In this document: piece by piece, positions 15,503 through 59,201 of the stretch
Position numbering within the stretch: the stretch's first letter is position 1
Layout: each line of letters opens with the position of its first letter
DNA from: Paenibacillus graminis
Lineage (GTDB): Bacteria; Bacillota; Bacilli; Paenibacillales; Paenibacillaceae
NCBI RefSeq assembly: GCF_000758705.1
Contig: NZ_CP009287.1
Coordinates: forward strand, 992,001-1,056,000
Length of the DNA: 64,000 nucleotides
Reading direction: 5' to 3'
Notes under the pieces: generated by a model
The model's input: the letters and a program-made list of their open reading frames with translations, nothing else
Database searches by the model: none
Told to the model about the DNA's origin: nothing
Made by a program: the position numbers and the translations under genes

Positions 15503-15681
15503 TTTACTTTATAAAACGTATTATGGTATAGTGTGGGTAGAAAAGACGTACAATGCAAAGAGAGCCGTGCGGCTAACACGACTCTCGGAGCAATAGCCGC
15601 TTTTAAGGGCGGCGGCTTTTAAAAGGCTTACCTACCGAAATAGGACCGCTACCTTTGACCAGGGCGGCCTATTTCTTTTTG
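15503..15681 (+). ncRNA. Candidate type I antitoxin RNA (antisense to toxin mRNA)
   Basis: A TTTACT / 18 bases / TATAGT promoter (15503-15532) is followed by a non-coding stretch of about 140 bases. It has three stem-loops and ends in a terminator: TAGG-(A)-CCGC pairs with GCGGCCTA, then TTTCTTTTT at 15671-15679. The RNA would overlap the 3' half of the toxin transcript, including its stop codon. This is the arrangement of the TxpA/RatA and Fst/RNAII-type modules. No reading frame of note lies on the plus strand. The start point is predicted, not shown. Confidence 0.6.
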
Positions 15682-15752
15682 TGGAAAGAAAGAATCAGCA
15701 CAACCAGAGTCGCGAATGAAATCATCAGCGTCAATGCTTGGTATACCTCCAC
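15669..15752 (-). CDS. Hol-Tox family type I toxin peptide, 27 aa
   Basis: A 27-residue peptide that starts at GTG (15752) 8 bases after GGGAGG. It reads MEVYQALTLMISFATLVVL followed by ILSFHKKK. It has one membrane helix with a short charged N terminus and a basic tail, as in the putative holin-like toxin (Hol_Tox) family of Firmicutes. The toxin would insert in the membrane. Its mRNA probably ends at the hairpin GAGAGTCGTG/CACGGCTCTC (15560-15586, minus strand) followed by TTT. A TATAAT box on the minus strand at 15816-15821 is the likely -10. A further in-frame GTG at 15761 is too close to the ribosome site to be used. Confidence 0.8.
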   Translation of the reverse strand: MEVYQALTLMISFATLVVLILSFHKKK

Positions 15753-15899
15753 AGGCTTCACCTCCCTTCCGGGAGATTAGCCGACCGCCCTTGCAAGCCT
15801 TCCATTGCTGATGTGATTATATCACGTAGTTGTACAACCTGGATATACTTACCTATTTGATGGAAAGACGTTTAGGATTCAGAATTAGAGCAGCCATGG

Positions 15900-53763: not shown

Positions 53764-54591
53764 TCATTCCTGGCTTGACTGTGTCTGATCCGGGGAGGCT
53801 TGATAGAGGGCCAGCGCCTTCAACGCGGATTCCCGCATCCGTTTTTTTAGCCAGCTCCCTTCCACGATCTTTACCCGTTTGCCCAAAAAGCGCATTTTGG
53901 ACAGGACATATTCCCCTTCATTGCCCAGATAGGTTAAGGAGATGGAATAGCTGTCCTTCTCCTCGTCATACCGGACCTCCTTCTCAAAGCAGGAGAAGGC
54001 GTAGAGAATCCGCGACAATTCCTTGTTGTAGCCCGGAAGAATTTCAATTACGGCGCACTGTCTGCGGCTTTCCAGGATTCGCTGAATCTCGGCTTGAGTC
54101 GTGCGGACAAGCTCGGGAGAGGCAGGGATTTCGCATACTGCTGCTATTTTTTGGAGACGGATGCTCATGAAGTCCCGGCGTGTCCAGCTGTACCACAGCA
54201 GATACCATTCCCTTTTGACCATGGAATATTCGAGGCGGTAGGGGAGACCGGACTGCTCCGGCCCGGGTTGCCCGTTGTTCAGACCCATGCTCACCTGAAT
54301 GCCCTGGTGGTTCTGAATACTGCGGCGCAGCACGCGTACCAGCGGATGATAGACCTGTACCTCCTGGGTCGAACCTTTATGGATCAAATCCCCGGCAAGG
54401 TTCAGCGGAGCCTCCTGCGCCAAAAGCGTCTGCAGCTTCTCAAGCGTCACTCCGGAAAAGGCAGCGGCCGCAGACGGATGGCCCAGCATCAGCTTCAGCC
54501 AGGAGCGTTCATGCGAAGTGGAGAGAAAAACTCCGGTGTCCTCCATACGGGAGGTGACGCGGTAATTAAAGATTTTTTCAAAAGGGTTCAT
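53764..54591 (-). CDS. WYL-domain regulator, second of pair
   Basis: A 275-residue protein. Its central WYL segment is YRLEYSMVKREWYLLWYSWT followed by RRDFMSIRLQKIAAV. An N-terminal helical part lacks the clear winged helix of its partner. It overlaps the upstream WYL gene by 14 bases, so the two are made together and may form a heteromeric sensor. WYL domains sense nucleotides or nucleic acids in several defence and RNA-repair loci. Its position beside Ro60 and Y RNA-like genes suggests control of that system; this is inference. Confidence 0.85.
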   Translation of the reverse strand: MNPFEKIFNYRVTSRMEDTGVFLSTSHERSWLKLMLGHPSAAAAFSGVTLEKLQTLLAQEAPLNLAGDLIHKGSTQEVQVYHPLVRVLRRSIQNHQGIQVSMGLNNGQPGPEQSGLPYRLEYSMVKREWYLLWYSWTRRDFMSIRLQKIAAVCEIPASPELVRTTQAEIQRILESRRQCAVIEILPGYNKELSRILYAFSCFEKEVRYDEEKDSYSISLTYLGNEGEYVLSKMRFLGKRVKIVEGSWLKKRMRESALKALALYQASPDQTQSSQE

Positions 54592-55900
54592 AATAGTCCA
54601 GAATCTCCTTCCATTCGGCCATCAGCTCCTCCCGGAGCTGTCTTGGAGCAAGCACTTCACAGCTTGAGCCAAAGCTGCGCAGCCAGGGCTTGATTTCTGT
54701 CGTTCCGTTCACAGTGATTTCATAGATGAAAAAGTGCGGAGCTTCCTCCGTAATTGTCCCCCACTGTCCTTGCAGCAGCACACGCTCCTTCACAAAATTA
54801 CGGGTAGTACTGCTGCGCTGCGGATTCAGGAATTTGGCCCGGACCGTAACGGGGCGCCCGGTGTCGATTAGCCAGCTGGTGGAGATTTTTTGCTCCAGAG
54901 CAGATTTTTCGGCCAAGAATAACTCCCCGGAGACGGCTTCGCCTTCCTCAATCTGCATCATGCCTTCCAGCCGGTATTTGCGGATACCCTGGTGTTTGCT
55001 GTGGGTGAGTAAATACCATCTGCCGTACTGGTGATCGTAGACGATCTTAAGCGGCAGCGCCGTCTCGGTCCGGCCGCTGGATTCACGCTCGAAGAGCGGA
55101 TTGGTGTTTTGGGAGGCATAGCTGGTGCTGGCTTTTGGTGAAAAGTAGAGAAACTGAATTTTGCGTCGGCCTCTGATCGCTGAGAGCAGCACAGACAAGT
55201 GGGCTTCATCCAGAATTCTGGAATAATAATGGTACTTATATAAAAAAGGCTCGATCGCCTGCTTTTTTTCATCCTGCCGGACCAGCTCTTTTTTCAGACT
55301 GTCGCGCAGCAAATAGCCTTGTACAGAGGGCAACTGGGTATTGGCCATAATATCCACGAAGTCGAAGAGATCCAGCAGCTCTTCCCTGGATAATTGCCTA
55401 ACCAGATCATTGTTGAGCCGGTAGCGGTAAGGGCGCGGGCCTGCCCCTTTGACAACCGCCCCTACTTCCTCCAAATATTTCAGATCGCTGCGGATTGTTT
55501 TTTCATCGGGAAAAGCGCTGTCCAGGTCCAGGCCGCTGCAGCAAATGTCCAGCAGATCTTTCATGGTCAGCTCTTGATTGTCGCTCAGGGCGGCAAGAAT
55601 CCGTGAGATTCTCAGACTTTCGGTTTCCTTGAGCGACTTGGCCTGAAACAGAAACAGCAGCAGAGGATCGGCGGATTCATAGTAATTAGACCGGAACGCA
55701 TCGGTGAAGACCTGGCCTTGCGCTTCCGGCGGCTGTTCCAGCAGAGTGTTAGCAACTTCCTTCAGCTTCTTCAGGGTTTTATCGAAGGTATGGACCGAGA
55801 TGCCGAGACGTTCGGCAAACTGCTGGCGGCTGTAAGCACCGCTGGTCAATACCAGCATCCGCAGAAACTGGATTTCCTTATCAAAGCTTTCCTTGGCCAT
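54578..55900 (-). CDS. WYL-domain transcriptional regulator with winged helix
   Basis: A 440-residue regulator. N-terminal helix-turn-helix: SRQQFAERLGISVHTFDKTLKKL, with a second helical domain (TIRSDLKYLEEVGAVVKGAG). The WYL domain (residues ~215-345) contains VLLSAIRGRRKIQFLYFSP and LKIVYDHQYGRWYLLTHSKH, and the C-terminal WCX extension follows. GGAGG lies 7 bases before the ATG. It diverges from the Y-RNA/Ro60 region, with starts separated by about 580 bases that hold structured RNA. A palindrome lies just upstream. Confidence 0.9.
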   Translation of the reverse strand: MAKESFDKEIQFLRMLVLTSGAYSRQQFAERLGISVHTFDKTLKKLKEVANTLLEQPPEAQGQVFTDAFRSNYYESADPLLLFLFQAKSLKETESLRISRILAALSDNQELTMKDLLDICCSGLDLDSAFPDEKTIRSDLKYLEEVGAVVKGAGPRPYRYRLNNDLVRQLSREELLDLFDFVDIMANTQLPSVQGYLLRDSLKKELVRQDEKKQAIEPFLYKYHYYSRILDEAHLSVLLSAIRGRRKIQFLYFSPKASTSYASQNTNPLFERESSGRTETALPLKIVYDHQYGRWYLLTHSKHQGIRKYRLEGMMQIEEGEAVSGELFLAEKSALEQKISTSWLIDTGRPVTVRAKFLNPQRSSTTRNFVKERVLLQGQWGTITEEAPHFFIYEITVNGTTEIKPWLRSFGSSCEVLAPRQLREELMAEWKEILDYYEPF

Positions 55901-55941: not shown

Positions 55942-56082
55942 GTACCAGCGGTGGCAAATGGAGAAAATGGAGAAGTTTCTCTTTGATCGTAATACTTACA
56001 CCATGTTCGCCGGGAAGGAAATAAGCGAAGATGGATACAAGAAAGCCGAAGCTGCAAAGCGGAGCTGACTTGAAAAGATTCT

Positions 56083-56208
56083 CCGAGGCGCACGGACGGG
56101 GTACTTCGCCTTCTAAGCGACCTGTCGCTGGTTCGACTCCAGCTTCCTTCAAGAAGGAATAGCTCAGTGGTAGAGCAGTCTGTGCCTGTCCAATCTTGTT
56201 TTCCTCGG
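56083..56208 (+). ncRNA. yrlA: YrlA-like Y RNA with permuted tRNA-like module
   Basis: A structured RNA of about 126 bases. The closing stem is CCGAGG (56083) with CCTCGG (56203). A second stem is GGACGGG (56094) with CCTGTCC (56185). Inside, in order: a hairpin with a seven-base anticodon-like loop CTTCTAA (TCGC/GCGA, 56106-56120), a T arm GCTGG-TTCGACT-CCAGC (56127-56143), an acceptor stem TTCCTTC/GAAGGAA closed by AA, TA, and a D arm GCTC-AGTGGTA-GAGC (56162-56176). This is a tRNA rearranged so that the break falls between D arm and anticodon arm. Bacterial YrlA RNAs carry such tRNA mimics and bind Ro60. No CCA end or mature tRNA gene is present. Confidence 0.78.
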
Positions 56209-56222
56209 TTGATTAAGCTATA

Positions 56223-56326
56223 CGCAAGGCGAGGCGTCTGAAAGGGATCCTTCGACTATTAAGGGAATAGAAGTGACGGTGCCTGCGGCACTGACAGGCC
56301 TTTTCAACCCTATTCCTCGCTTTGTG
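56223..56326 (+). ncRNA. Second Y-RNA-like structured unit
   Basis: A 12-bp closing stem, CGCAAGGCGAGG (56223-56234) with CCTCGCTTTGTG (56315-56326), includes two G-U pairs. Inside are a 7-bp hairpin around GTGCC-TGC-GGCAC (56277-56293) and an AATAG/CTATT helix. The GAGGCG and TTCCTC core next to the stem is shared with the units on both sides. A T-loop-like TTCGACT occurs without a matching stem; no D arm is seen. I read it as a diverged Y RNA copy. It could also be a linker of one longer RNA. Confidence 0.55.
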
Positions 56327-56337
56327 CAAACCATCAG

Positions 56338-56454
56338 GCCGGTGAGGCGCCGGGTCGGGTTACTTCACACTCCAACGTGACCAAATGAACTACCCTGGGC
56401 AATACGGCAGGTTCGACTCCTGCAAGACACCTGTCCCACCTTTTCCTCACCGGC
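56338..56454 (+). ncRNA. Third Y-RNA-like unit, in rsr leader
   Basis: A perfect 10-bp closing stem GCCGGTGAGG (56338-56347) with CCTCACCGGC (56445-56454). GGGTCGGGT (56352) pairs with ACCTGTCCC (56429) with one mismatch. A TCAC/GTGA hairpin follows (56365-56380), homologous to the anticodon-like hairpin of the first unit with changed but still paired bases. A canonical T arm GCAGG-TTCGACT-CCTGC lies at 56407-56423. No D arm or acceptor is present. The unit ends 23 bases before the Ro60 start codon, so it may be cut from the leader or regulate it. Confidence 0.65.
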
Positions 56455-56477
56455 ATTGAATTTAGGAGGTTATGAAT

Positions 56478-57971
56478 ATGAGCTTTGCTTCCAAGCTGTT
56501 TAGTTCCAAGAAACCAAATGCCCGGAACCAGGAAGGATATCCTGCTTATACGCGTTCTGTGGAAGAGCAGTATCTGCAGATGCTTTTGACTAACACAATG
56601 CATAACACGTTCTATGCGGACCAGCAGGAGCTTCTAGATAATGCGGCGGAGCTGCATGAGCAAATGGCTCTTGAACAGCCGGAGTTTATGGCTAAAGCGC
56701 TGGTCTATGCCCGCAGCGAAGGGTTCATGCGGCTGCAGCCGCTGTTCGGGCTGGCGGTGCTGTCCGGTACCCGTCCGGATTTGTTCGCCAGAGTCTTCAT
56801 GAAGGTTGTGCAAATCCCGTCAGACCTGTCCGATTTCCTGACGATCCTGCAGGGATTGGGACGTGGGGAGGGCGGCCGGGCGGTGAAGCGGCAGGTCAGC
56901 CTGTTCCTGGCGGGAATCAGCGAATACTGGGCGCTGAAATACAATGGCCGCGGCCGTGGCTACAGTCTCGGCGACGCCATTGCCACGGCTCATCCGAAGC
57001 CGGCCGATCTCAAACAGCAGGCCTTGTACCGTTACCTGCGCGGCCAGGAGGCTAATTTGGGGCTTCTGCCCCAGGTAGAAGCCATGGAGAAGCTGAAGCA
57101 GGCCGGGTCTGCCGAGGAGCAGATCGCCTGGATCGAGCGGGGCAAGCTTCCTTACTCAGCCGTAACGGGGGCGATCAAACCTTCACAGGAAGTCTGGAAT
57201 GCCATCCTGTATCAGATGCCGACATTTGCGCTGCTCCGCCATTTGAATACGCTCTTGCGGTCCGGCGTGCTTGCAGACCAGAAGAACTTGGATTATGTTG
57301 TGGGCAGGCTGGTGGACCAGGATGCACTGCGCAAGGCAAGAATTTTGCCTTTCCGCTTTGCCACGGCGTTCCGTCAGGTCAACGAGCCCGAGCTTCGGGA
57401 TGCGCTGAGGGAAGCTGTTGACCTGACTTTTGATAACCTGCCGGACATGGGCGGACGAACCGCGATATTTCTCGATATTTCCGGCTCGATGCAGGGAGAG
57501 TACTTGGAGATTGGTTCGGTATTTGCTCTGGCTCTGTATAAGAAAACCCAAGGGAAGTCGCTGTTCTGGCTCTTCGACACCGCCGTTGCGGATGCCAAGC
57601 CTTCCCGGCGGGACAGCATTCTGGGACAGGCGGAACAGATCCATGCCCGTGGAGGAACCGATACCGGTGCGCCGGTCCGCAAGCTGCTGGAGCAGCGCAC
57701 GAAGGTGGATCAGATCATCATCATCACCGATGAGCAGCAGAACAGCGGAAGCCCGTTCTATCAACAGCTCAAACTGTACCGCAAGAGGTTGAATCCCGAT
57801 GTTAAGGCATTCGTCGTCGATATCGCACCTTACCGTCATGCCATGGTGCCTGAGCAGGATGAGCAGACCTATTATGTCTATGGCTGGAGTGACACAGTGT
57901 TATCCTATATCGCCCGGTCAGTGCAAGGATATGGGTCAATGACAGAGCGGGTGGCGGCGATGGAGATATAA
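56478..57971 (+). CDS. rsr: Ro60 homologue (TROVE-vWA, Rsr)
   Basis: A 497-residue ring-shaped RNA-binding protein of the Ro60 family. It has a TROVE HEAT-repeat domain (about 20-320, with EEQYLQMLLTNTMHNTFYAD, EQPEFMAKALVYARSEGFMR and a vWA-adjacent DLTFDNLPDMGGRTA) and a von Willebrand A domain with the metal site DISGSMQG near residue 330 and GGTDTGAPV. Ro60 proteins bind misfolded RNA ends and Y RNAs, which gate access or tether a nuclease such as PNPase. AGGAGG at 56464 lies 8 bases before the ATG at 56478; the ATG at 56472 is too close. No rtcB or rtcA gene is in the window. The gene is directly downstream of the RNA units. Confidence 0.92.
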   Translation: MSFASKLFSSKKPNARNQEGYPAYTRSVEEQYLQMLLTNTMHNTFYADQQELLDNAAELHEQMALEQPEFMAKALVYARSEGFMRLQPLFGLAVLSGTRPDLFARVFMKVVQIPSDLSDFLTILQGLGRGEGGRAVKRQVSLFLAGISEYWALKYNGRGRGYSLGDAIATAHPKPADLKQQALYRYLRGQEANLGLLPQVEAMEKLKQAGSAEEQIAWIERGKLPYSAVTGAIKPSQEVWNAILYQMPTFALLRHLNTLLRSGVLADQKNLDYVVGRLVDQDALRKARILPFRFATAFRQVNEPELRDALREAVDLTFDNLPDMGGRTAIFLDISGSMQGEYLEIGSVFALALYKKTQGKSLFWLFDTAVADAKPSRRDSILGQAEQIHARGGTDTGAPVRKLLEQRTKVDQIIIITDEQQNSGSPFYQQLKLYRKRLNPDVKAFVVDIAPYRHAMVPEQDEQTYYVYGWSDTVLSYIARSVQGYGSMTERVAAMEI

Positions 57972-58709: not shown

Positions 58710-59201
58710 AACGGCAGAAATACCGTTGTTGGGCGCGCCGCGGCCAGAACTGGCGGAAACAACGGCAGAAGTGCCGTTGTTGGACGCACCGTGGCCGGAA
58801 CTGGCGGAAACAACGGCAGAAGTGCCGTTGTTGGGCGCGCCGCGGCCGGAACTGGCGGAAACAACGGCAGAAATACCGTTGTTGGACGCGCCGCGGCCGG
58901 AGTTGGCGGAAACAACGGCAGAAGTGCCGTTGTTGGACGCGCCGCGGCCGGAGTTGGCGGAAACAACGGCAGAAGTGCCGTTGTTGGGCGCACCGTGGCC
59001 GGAACTGGCGGAAACAACGGTAGAAATACCGTTGTTGGACGCACCGTGGCCGGAACTGGCGGAAACAACGGTAGAAATACCGTTGTTGGGCGCACCGCGG
59101 CCGGAGTTGGCGGAAACAACGGCAGAAATACCGTTGTTGGACGCGCCGCGGCCGGAGTTGGCGGAAACAACGGCAGAAGTGCCGTTGTTGGGCGCACCAT
59201 A
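58710..59201. repeat. 51-bp tandem repeat array, 9.6 copies, with conserved hairpins
   Basis: Nine full 51-bp units begin at 58710 and every 51 bases thereafter; a tenth is cut at 59169-59201. Each unit holds a 10-bp inverted repeat (AACAACGGCA / TGCCGTTGTT around GAAG) followed by GGGCGC- or GGACGC-, GCGGCC- and CTGGCGG-type GC-rich sequence. Five units have GGCA/TGCC arms, three have GGCA/TACC, and two have GGTA/TACC. The length divides by 3, so several frames stay open, but no start with ribosome site or domain supports a protein. Confidence 0.92.

Follow-up and report, generated by a model that had tools for sequence, protein, structure and literature searches.

A Ro60 locus of Paenibacillus graminis with three Y RNA units, one a permuted tRNA with an anticodon arm, as a probable output of a WYL-controlled tRNA/RNA-damage regulon

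Why the Ro60 ribonucleoproteins of bacteria contain a tRNA-like RNA is an open question, and it is addressed by a locus in Paenibacillus graminis. The window, that is, the whole analysed stretch of 64,000 nucleotides (NZ_CP009287.1, positions 992,001 to 1,056,000), contains a Ro60-family gene, rsr, with structured RNA units in its leader, and the comparison of this arrangement across relatives enabled assignment of the units, of the promoter ahead of them and of the regulators encoded on the other strand.

The rsr gene (56478–57971, forward strand) encodes a protein of 497 residues comprising a TROVE domain (PF05731, E of 4.1e-18, 66.2 bits against a Pfam cut-off of 23) and a Ro60 vWA domain (PF25045, E of 1.3e-7, 32.1 bits against a cut-off of 27.7). 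Both domains are above cut-off, and the TROVE/vWA gene that the initial annotation had placed downstream of Y-RNA-like units is thus real. The closest solved structure is Deinococcus Rsr (PDB entry 2nvo, E of 4.3e-21). With the NCBIfam equivalog NF041674 the protein scores 90.6 bits, under the cut-off of 900, and it is therefore a relative within the family rather than that equivalog. The start codon is, from the sequence, more likely the ATG at 56478 than the listed ATG at 56472, because AGGAGG at 56464–56469 lies at a spacing of 8 nt.

Three consecutive units occupy the rsr leader, as had been claimed, and their stems covary across relatives; the last outer stem, that of unit 3, ends the stated distance of approximately 23 nt before ATG 56478. 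The units have a common anatomy, with the 5' motif GAGGCG-(nn)GGAnGGG-nnCTTC, the 3' motif CCTnTCC...TTCCTC, and an outer and an inner stem. The double stem common to all three is probably the Rsr-binding part. Single-sequence folding clearly beats shuffles for units 2 and 3 only (z of −3.14 and −2.47, with −0.39 for unit 2 folded with wider flanks), and the proof therefore rests on comparison; for unit 1 (z of −0.73) folding was uninformative and was dropped as evidence. In the alignment of unit 1 (49 sequences), 96.5% of cells are paired and 21 pairs are changed on both sides (0 of 500 shuffles), and in that of unit 3 (37 sequences), 93.7% are paired and 13 pairs are changed on both sides (0 of 500 shuffles). 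The alignment of unit 2 (33 sequences, 94.9% of cells paired) has 6 such pairs, a number reached by 76 of 500 shuffles, and 37 cells with both-side changes, reached by none of the 500.

The units differ in what the double stem carries and in how often they occur. Unit 2 (56222–56327, forward strand) is a Y-like RNA with no tRNA arms and is variably present; it is missing in the sister genome L002, even though the Rsr proteins are 97% identical. Unit 3 (56335–56457, forward strand) is a Y-like RNA with a T arm (56407–56423) and no D arm. Among 106 loci with a parsed unit, all three units were recorded in 27, unit 1 alone in 26, units 1 and 2 in 16, and units 1 and 3 in 12, counts that are approximate because the parser overlooks some units, the unit 1 of the window among them; seven copies of unit 1 were added, and one was corrected, by hand. 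Many loci show a single unit, with its 3' motif often approximately 62 nt from the rsr start.

Unit 1 (56076–56215, forward strand) is a circularly permuted tRNA of the YrlA type that includes an anticodon arm. Along the forward strand it is composed of an anticodon-arm mimic, UCGC-CUUCUAA-GCGA (56106–56120, with the loop at 56110–56116 and the anticodon UCU at 56112–56114), a T arm (56127–56143), an acceptor-stem mimic (56144–56159) that is closed by a loop and has no free CCA end, and a D arm (56162–56176). All seven acceptor pairs are changed on both sides among relatives; the stem of the D arm is invariant and therefore provides no covariation evidence of its own. The helix of the anticodon arm has 96.2% of cells paired and one of four pairs changed on both sides. 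In the window the outer stem has two mismatches, which, by eye, are paired in L002. The unit-1 model R1 gives 126.2 bits on the window copy, which belongs to the model's own alignment. ARAGORN called a tRNA in 63 of 68 distinct unit-1 RNAs after their halves were swapped and in none of the 68 in native order, a procedure that tests the anticodon arm weakly, with 39–50 of the 68 still called when the anticodon region was shuffled.

The Rfam covariance search proposed in the initial annotation gave a partial answer: YrlA (RF02553) matches 56119–56184 with 40.7 bits (E of 1.5e-7), under its gathering score of 69, and nothing in the unit region reaches a gathering score. Unit 1 nevertheless resembles YrlA in the permuted arrangement of its T, acceptor and D arms, which is seen in the model alignment, in the covariation of the T and acceptor stems and in the ARAGORN calls after permutation; it also has a basal stem made from the 5' and 3' ends and an adjoining Ro60 gene. 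Each of the 63 genomes in which unit 1 is matched at full length with at least 86 bits is among the 68 with a strong rsr match. The available portion of PMC8394870 gives D, T and acceptor arms for YrlA; unit 1 departs from that restriction, with an anticodon arm present in most relatives and often carrying a real loop. This arm, the T arm of unit 3 and the upstream promoter element went unmentioned in the initial annotation, the frame of which was too narrow. Some tRNA calls in native order were judged spurious: an Rfam tRNA match at 56095–56151 (26.5 bits, below 29) that lacks a D arm, together with ARAGORN calls overlapping unit 1 in L003 and unit 3 in L041, L048 and L146.

Ahead of the units lies a conserved operator/promoter element (55988–56008, forward strand; CGTAATACTTACACCATGTTC), which was identified from motif matches across rsr loci, sites in the same genome and a family scan. 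The promoter core (56004–56032, forward strand) comprises TGTTCG (56004–56009), 17 bp and a −10-like GAAGAT (56027–56032), and its −35 region is non-standard. Of 107 rsr loci, 104 have the element CGYMATACTTNYRCCMTGTTCG, followed by 17 bp and xAnnAT, ahead of their units (match of at least 18 of 20), and at 101 of these 104 sites the spacing to xAnnnT is exactly 17 bp. The element is present in 199 of 295 family genomes, with 0 among the matches listed for a control read backwards.

Two genes on the reverse strand diverge from the Y RNA–rsr unit. WYL1 (54578–55900) is an HTH-WYL-WCX transcription regulator, with WCX (E of 1e-11, 45.4 bits, cut-off 23.9) and WYL (E of 7e-7, 29.6 bits, cut-off 21.8) above the Pfam cut-offs and an N-terminal HTH_11 just below (24.7 bits, cut-off 25). 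WYL2 (53764–54591), directly behind it, is a second WYL-type protein of 275 residues (Pfam WYL E of 0.03, below cut-off; PADLOC WYL PDLC01652 E of 2.5e-12, 45.4 bits), and of 35 named loci, 30 contain both genes. Among the 76 loci with at least 2,500 nt of upstream sequence, 64 have WYL1 ahead of rsr on the opposite strand, and 67 of the 68 genomes with a strong rsr match carry WYL1. No solved structure matches WYL1 at E of at most 0.01; a database search with it found 482 proteins, of which the best 120 are listed. A phylum-level TROVE scan found 10 of 398 genomes, four of them family genomes already counted; among the remaining six, unit-like 5' motifs are present in two (L158 and L159), and no close WYL1 relative was found, with one distant match (23% identity) in L162.

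Other copies of the element precede rlaP, a slipin gene or an MXAN_6230-like gene, and five genomes have one upstream of tRNA gene arrays. In the genome of the window, the slipin promoter is at C1:942279 and that of the MXAN_6230-like gene at C1:7034601. RlaP is a nucleotidyltransferase family of RNA repair pathways, and of the 76 relatives with 900 nt or more of downstream sequence, 56 have its gene behind rsr in the same orientation (median gap of approximately 81 nt). The 64-kb window has no RlaP match, and the genome carries RlaP at C1:1211275. The absence of rtcBA beside rsr, noted initially, was confirmed: the sole rtcB match of the genome (C1:1606024) is approximately 0.56 Mb away, and WYL genes are in the regulator position. 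No element was found near rlaP and rtcB of this genome at up to three mismatches. The leader of the slipin gene holds a second permuted-tRNA-like RNA; 21 such RNAs have a T arm, and the four of these with a complete D arm were all called tRNAs after permutation. On the slipin leader stretch L190:3760–4360, Rfam gave no family beyond a chance-level STnc450 (E of 0.62). Since rsr belongs to this wider set of genes with a common promoter element, in most cases beside a divergent WYL pair, the earlier suggestion of a system acting alone is unsupported. Because one element precedes all these genes, tRNA/RNA damage or translational stress is the most likely signal for the regulon.

The Ro60 locus is thus, in our judgement, probably one output of a WYL-controlled tRNA/RNA-damage regulon. 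The leader would encode three Y RNAs with a common double stem and different heads, namely a permuted whole-tRNA mimic, a plain head and a T arm, and transcription would start at the non-standard promoter, the element of which is probably read by WYL1/WYL2, as the gene arrangement suggests. On damage, the WYL proteins would receive a nucleic-acid ligand, and the promoter would fire; the binding of the WYL proteins, its sign and the ligand are what we infer. Rsr would then take up the Y RNAs, presumably as free RNAs processed out of the rsr leader, and it would depend on the exposed heads whether a given RNase or tRNA-reading enzyme were tethered or blocked, with PNPase a candidate for tethering, so that damaged RNA would be degraded or repaired. 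Against this scheme, 137 genomes have WYL1 and no strong rsr match; WYL1 is therefore not dedicated to Ro60, and that assignment was rejected.

Related systems resemble parts of this arrangement. In the Salmonella rsr-yrlBA-rtcBA operon, as described in the available portion of PMC7790460, rsr and more than one Y RNA are likewise under a dedicated damage-type regulator; however, that regulator is the CARF protein RtcR rather than a WYL gene pair, the usual neighbour is rtcBA rather than rlaP, and here three units all lie ahead of rsr. An rtc RNA repair operon, with rtcB/rtcA beside rsr and RtcR, was not found at the locus. The Deinococcus Rsr–Y RNA–PNPase machine (RYPER) similarly combines an Rsr-type protein with a Y RNA bearing a tRNA-like domain; tethering of PNPase is putative at the present locus. 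In Anabaena, TrcR controls a tRNA array, rtcB and a slipin gene (by transcriptome) and is released by translational stress, according to the available portion of PMC10272220; TrcR differs in being a ribbon-helix-helix repressor, and Ro60 does not occur in the text. The HTH-WYL architecture of WYL1 is that of regulators of defence and RNA-linked systems, predicted sensors of nucleotides or RNA ends (PMC4012209, PMC9503650), the texts of which contain neither TROVE nor Y RNA, and the available portions of which make no TROVE/Ro60 link.

The anticodon arm suggests another main job for unit 1, one that is compatible with the regulon. With its closed acceptor end and intact anticodon loop, it could, stabilised by Rsr, lure anticodon nucleases or tRNA-reading enzymes, the slipin-leader RNA being a second bait; we regard this as possible, although somewhat doubtful. 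The unit 1 loop CUUCUAA is identical to the tRNA-Arg(tct) loop of the same genome, and the loops of relatives often equal other real anticodon loops. A loop identical to a window-genome tRNA loop, on a 7-nt hairpin of at least 4 bp, is present in 25 of 43 distinct segments (shuffles average 0.02), and U33 and R37 are found in 32 and 33 of 34 scored hairpins. The loop reads UCU in the window but UUU in L002, with the frame kept, the slipin leader holds a second, differently broken permutation with loops such as CTTTTAA, CTGTTAA and CTTTCAC, and 12 genomes have tRNA arrays ahead of the Y RNAs. However, when only the anticodon letters are randomised and the frame is kept, chance gives 2.9 of 16 distinct loops against 7 observed (107 of 20,000 reach 7), and re-dealt letters give 4.4 matches (1,155 of 20,000 reach 7), so that anticodon identity itself is weakly supported. 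Moreover, 9 of the 16 loops match no tRNA loop of the window genome, the arm is altered or gone in L026, L146, L072, one L070 copy and L096, the D arm is incomplete in 17 of 21 slipin RNAs, and some of the slipin RNAs have a degenerate anticodon hairpin. The available portion of PMC7790460 suggests that YrlA may competitively inhibit the anticodon nuclease, and also reports that Salmonella YrlA is not cut by the RecA-dependent one.

A role of the units as no more than a structured 5' untranslated region, an Rsr-bound cis element for autoregulation or stability of the rsr mRNA, is unlikely. Their position between the element and rsr on one strand, with unit 3 close to the start codon, would suit this role, but the units come and go with rsr unaffected, as the loss of unit 2 in L002 and the many single-unit loci attest, an mRNA leader needs no whole-tRNA mimic, and the available portion of PMC8394870 presents the Y RNAs of bacteria as free RNAs.

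Similarly improbable is a reading by an unrelated factor, with the WYL neighbours coincidental. Across the 295 genomes, WYL1 (E of at most 1e-40) and the element (exact match) occur together in 193 and are both missing in 85 (Fisher p of approximately 1e-53, kinship ignored), and a divergent WYL gene also flanks the element in five of six loci of rsr-less genomes. The exceptions, which would suit another factor, are 11 genomes with WYL1 alone, 6 with the element alone, and 12 of 76 loci without adjacent WYL1, 11 of which retain the element. That the units are decaying remains of a tRNA array beside rsr is very improbable: the unit-1 model also matches a tandem junction of a tRNA-Asn 3' half and a tRNA-Thr 5' half, 26 of 107 loci carry a tRNA-Asn arm core (TCGACTGTTAATCGA) ahead of rsr and tRNA arrays are present at some loci, but selection is shown by the compensatory changes, which affect the outer, inner and acceptor stems, and by the constancy of the promoter element; debris would account for the origin of the units and not for their present state.

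The locus also suggests that YrlA-type RNAs arose where two tandem tRNA genes meet. The anticodon-type loop links the mimicry to tRNA damage, as does the gene set with rlaP, slipin, the second permuted-tRNA-like RNA and, in some cases, tRNA arrays, and the sensing of, or resistance to, such damage becomes testable in a soil bacterium. Tentatively, Paenibacillaceae and their kin may possess a WYL-controlled anti-tRNA-damage regulon with two differently permuted whole-tRNA mimics, a Ro60-bound YrlA with an anticodon arm and the slipin-leader RNA, both of which would derive from tandem-tRNA junctions and act as decoys or damage sensors, with repair enzymes and, in some genera, replacement tRNAs co-expressed.

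The gene at 56478–57971 (+) encodes a 497-residue Ro60-family protein, Rsr, in which a domain search identifies TROVE and vWA domains. The closest solved structure is that of Deinococcus Rsr (2nvo, E 4.3e-21), and the nearest named relatives are from Paenibacillus (P. jilunlii, 97% protein identity; P. helianthi, 90%). Within 400 nt 5' of rsr lie three units (unit 1, 56076–56215; unit 2, 56222–56327; unit 3, 56335–56457) of a common plan: an outer stem, whose end is GAGG/CCTC, leads through an internal loop to an inner stem (GGAnGGG/CCTnTCC), and the head on top varies. This bears out the initial annotation of a TROVE/vWA gene preceded by three structured units. The comparison set of 107 distinct rsr loci, with the window counted once, was reduced to non-redundant unit sets before alignment, using 49 of 49 sequences for unit 1, 33 of 45 for unit 2 (12 with variable or doubtful parsing were left out) and 37 of 42 for unit 3 (five mis-parsed or divergent copies were left out). 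These alignments show strong covariation in units 1 and 3 and moderate covariation in unit 2; at position n of the unit 1 inner stem, A:U, C:G and U:A all occur in register among the 49 sequences. Locus L031 carries a tandem pair of complete YrlA units 5' of rsr, and in one of the two the anticodon loop is altered. In L024 and L025, unit 3 appears cut down to its 5' half, and its GGGGAGGG occupies the rsr Shine–Dalgarno position.

In its sequence, unit 1 is a permuted tRNA carrying an anticodon arm. It runs 5' to 3' through a stem, anticodon arm, T arm, acceptor 3' strand, short loop, acceptor 5' strand, D arm and stem. ARAGORN calls a tRNA in 63 of 68 distinct unit 1 sequences after the halves are swapped and in none of the 68 in native order; since 39–50 of the 68 are still called when the anticodon part alone is shuffled (ten repeats), these calls say little about the anticodon arm. 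The loops are more informative; they were compared with 40 distinct anticodon loops from fetched tRNA stretches of the P. graminis genome. A hairpin of at least 4 bp with a 7-nt loop identical to one of these is present in 25 of 43 distinct unit 1 segments (mean 0.02 in 2,000 shuffles), and 7 of 16 distinct loops equal a reference loop (mean 0.09 in 20,000 within-loop shuffles). With the loop frame fixed and the three anticodon letters random, 2.9 matches are expected versus the seven found (107 of 20,000 trials reach seven); re-dealing the letters from one loop to another gives an expectation of 4.4 (1,155 of 20,000). The frame (U33, R37) thus has strong support, and the identities of the anticodons are no more than suggestive. 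The identical procedure on the aligned sets finds such hairpins in 21 of 38 distinct segments of unit 1, 3 of 37 of unit 3 and 0 of 32 of unit 2. The loop is CUUCUAA (Arg UCU) in the window versus CUUUUAA (Lys UUU) in its sister L002; the arm is lost or changed in a few relatives (L026, L146, L072, one L070 copy and L096), and one of the four pairs of its stem shows changes on both sides.

R1, the covariance model of unit 1, has full-length matches (at least 86 bits) in 63 of the 295 family genomes. Each of these belongs to the 68 genomes in which rsr reaches E ≤ 1e-40, and five of those 68 have no such match; only ten candidates were scored per genome, with strict filtering, and many of these 68 genomes contributed to R1. 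The P. graminis genome has five R1 matches weaker than unit 1, and the one of these that is listed is a tandem tRNA-Asn/tRNA-Thr gene junction (model positions 31–104, 43.4 bits). The tRNA-Asn anticodon arm reads CTCGACTGTTAATCGAG, and 26 of the 107 loci have its 15-nt core upstream of rsr. Because of these two likenesses, YrlA-type RNAs may have descended from a tandem tRNA-gene junction. Locus L252 (G273:C4:873482 on) has a second promoter element and YrlA-type unit with no rsr match within 1.6 kb downstream.

The promoter element upstream of unit 1 (55988–56008), CGYMATACTTNYRCCMTGTTC, is present at 18 or more of 20 bases in 104 of 107 rsr loci, and the spacing from TGTTCG to xAnnnT is exactly 17 bp in 101 of these 104 sites. 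In the family scan the exact 20-base element occurs in 199 of 295 genomes, with zero matches of its backwards-read control among those listed. WYL1, the divergent HTH-WYL-WCX regulator (54578–55900 (−)), is found at E ≤ 1e-40 in 204 genomes: 193 have both, 11 WYL1 only, six the element only and 85 neither. The rsr gene is detected in 72 genomes at E ≤ 0.001, 68 of them at E ≤ 1e-40; WYL1 accompanies 67 of these 68, and 137 WYL1 genomes fall outside them.

The family scan places three exact element sites in the P. graminis genome, namely that of rsr, one preceding a slipin/Band_7 gene (PF01145; C1:942279) and one preceding a gene for an MXAN_6230/SCO0854-related protein (C1:7034601 (−); 500 bits versus the 600 required by the family cut-off). 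The 30 fetched loci contain 32 sites; a recognised gene lies within 1.6 kb downstream of 25 of them (rsr 10, slipin 7, MXAN-like 4, rlaP 4), and seven have none; 20 additional hand-picked sites give slipin 14, MXAN-like 1 and none recognised 5. In loci devoid of rsr, the WYL-side element precedes rlaP, an RNA repair pathway nucleotidyltransferase family gene, in five of six read (PF10127, E 1.7e-98). On the rsr strand, rlaP lies downstream in 56 of 76 loci with at least 900 nt of downstream sequence, 49 of these within 600 nt; none follows rsr in the window or its nearest relatives L002, L003 and L036.

The slipin leader is, by its arrangement, a putative second permuted tRNA-like RNA, ordered T arm, closed acceptor stem, D arm and anticodon-like arm (CTCGA-7 nt-TCGAG in several), with a break point different from that of unit 1. 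The D arm is complete in 4 of 21 leaders having a T arm, and these four, once permuted and joined by an invented linker, give tRNA-Lys or tRNA-Asn calls at each of the eight linker lengths tried. It is incomplete in the other 17, including that of P. graminis (L190:3780–4346, C1:942279 on), for which Rfam gives no family match; in some of the 17 the anticodon hairpin is degenerate as well. The MXAN-type leader consists of one or two hairpins sharing a motif (five sequences); in P. graminis (L189, C1:7034601 (−)) two tandem hairpin RNAs sharing CAGGCTAT..CCTTCCTTCT..GCTTTCCTG lie 5' of the MXAN_6230/SCO0854-like gene, behind the same element as rsr.

Twelve genomes carry tRNA genes upstream of, and on the same strand as, the Y RNAs and rsr (L052, L053, L055, L056, L059, L062, L064–L067, L135 and L159). 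The check for an element upstream of the arrays covered seven of the 12, finding an additional one in L052, L053, L055, L056 and L067, and none in the stretches examined for L135 and L159; in L052 it lies ~0.75 kb upstream, with other sequence intervening. In L159 (G577, from another family of the phylum) a distant rsr (58% identity) is immediately preceded by five ordinary tRNA genes, and upstream of another distant rsr (22% identity) ARAGORN reports an odd tRNA, its anticodon four bases long, at L161:1969–2037 (G869). Elsewhere in the window, 15562–15808 (−) matches Rfam BsrG, a type I toxin–antitoxin-type RNA, at gathering score (63.6 bits), and 58710–59195 is a tandem array of a 51-bp repeat (9.5 copies, 91% matches) with open frames on both strands.

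Bacterial Y RNA has a gating role. Chen et al. (2014) reportedly described several Y RNAs beside Ro60 and a tRNA-like YrlA, and Burroughs and Aravind (2016) may mention WYL–RlaP or slipin contexts. The accessible text of PMC8394870 already records multiple Y RNAs adjoining Ro60 and tRNA-like YrlA, and describes Y RNA as an Rsr–PNPase tether for structured RNA decay. In the open-access literature outside the main Ro60 papers, seen mostly as titles and listings, no report was recognised that connects WYL regulators with Ro60, describes an array of Y RNAs in Paenibacillus or gives YrlA an anticodon arm. In Salmonella, according to the accessible parts of PMC7790460, accumulating tRNA fragments induce the operon that contains rsr and two Y RNAs; the authors suggest that YrlA might inhibit the nuclease competitively, and they observed no YrlA fragments. 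In Anabaena, a repressor unrelated to the regulators here controls rtcB, a slipin gene and an array of tRNA genes under translational stress (PMC10272220, in part). By analogy with these systems, the element-linked gene set would respond to tRNA damage; Rsr, together with its Y RNAs, would direct the fate of damaged RNA, and the head of unit 1, with its anticodon, could bait anticodon-reading enzymes.
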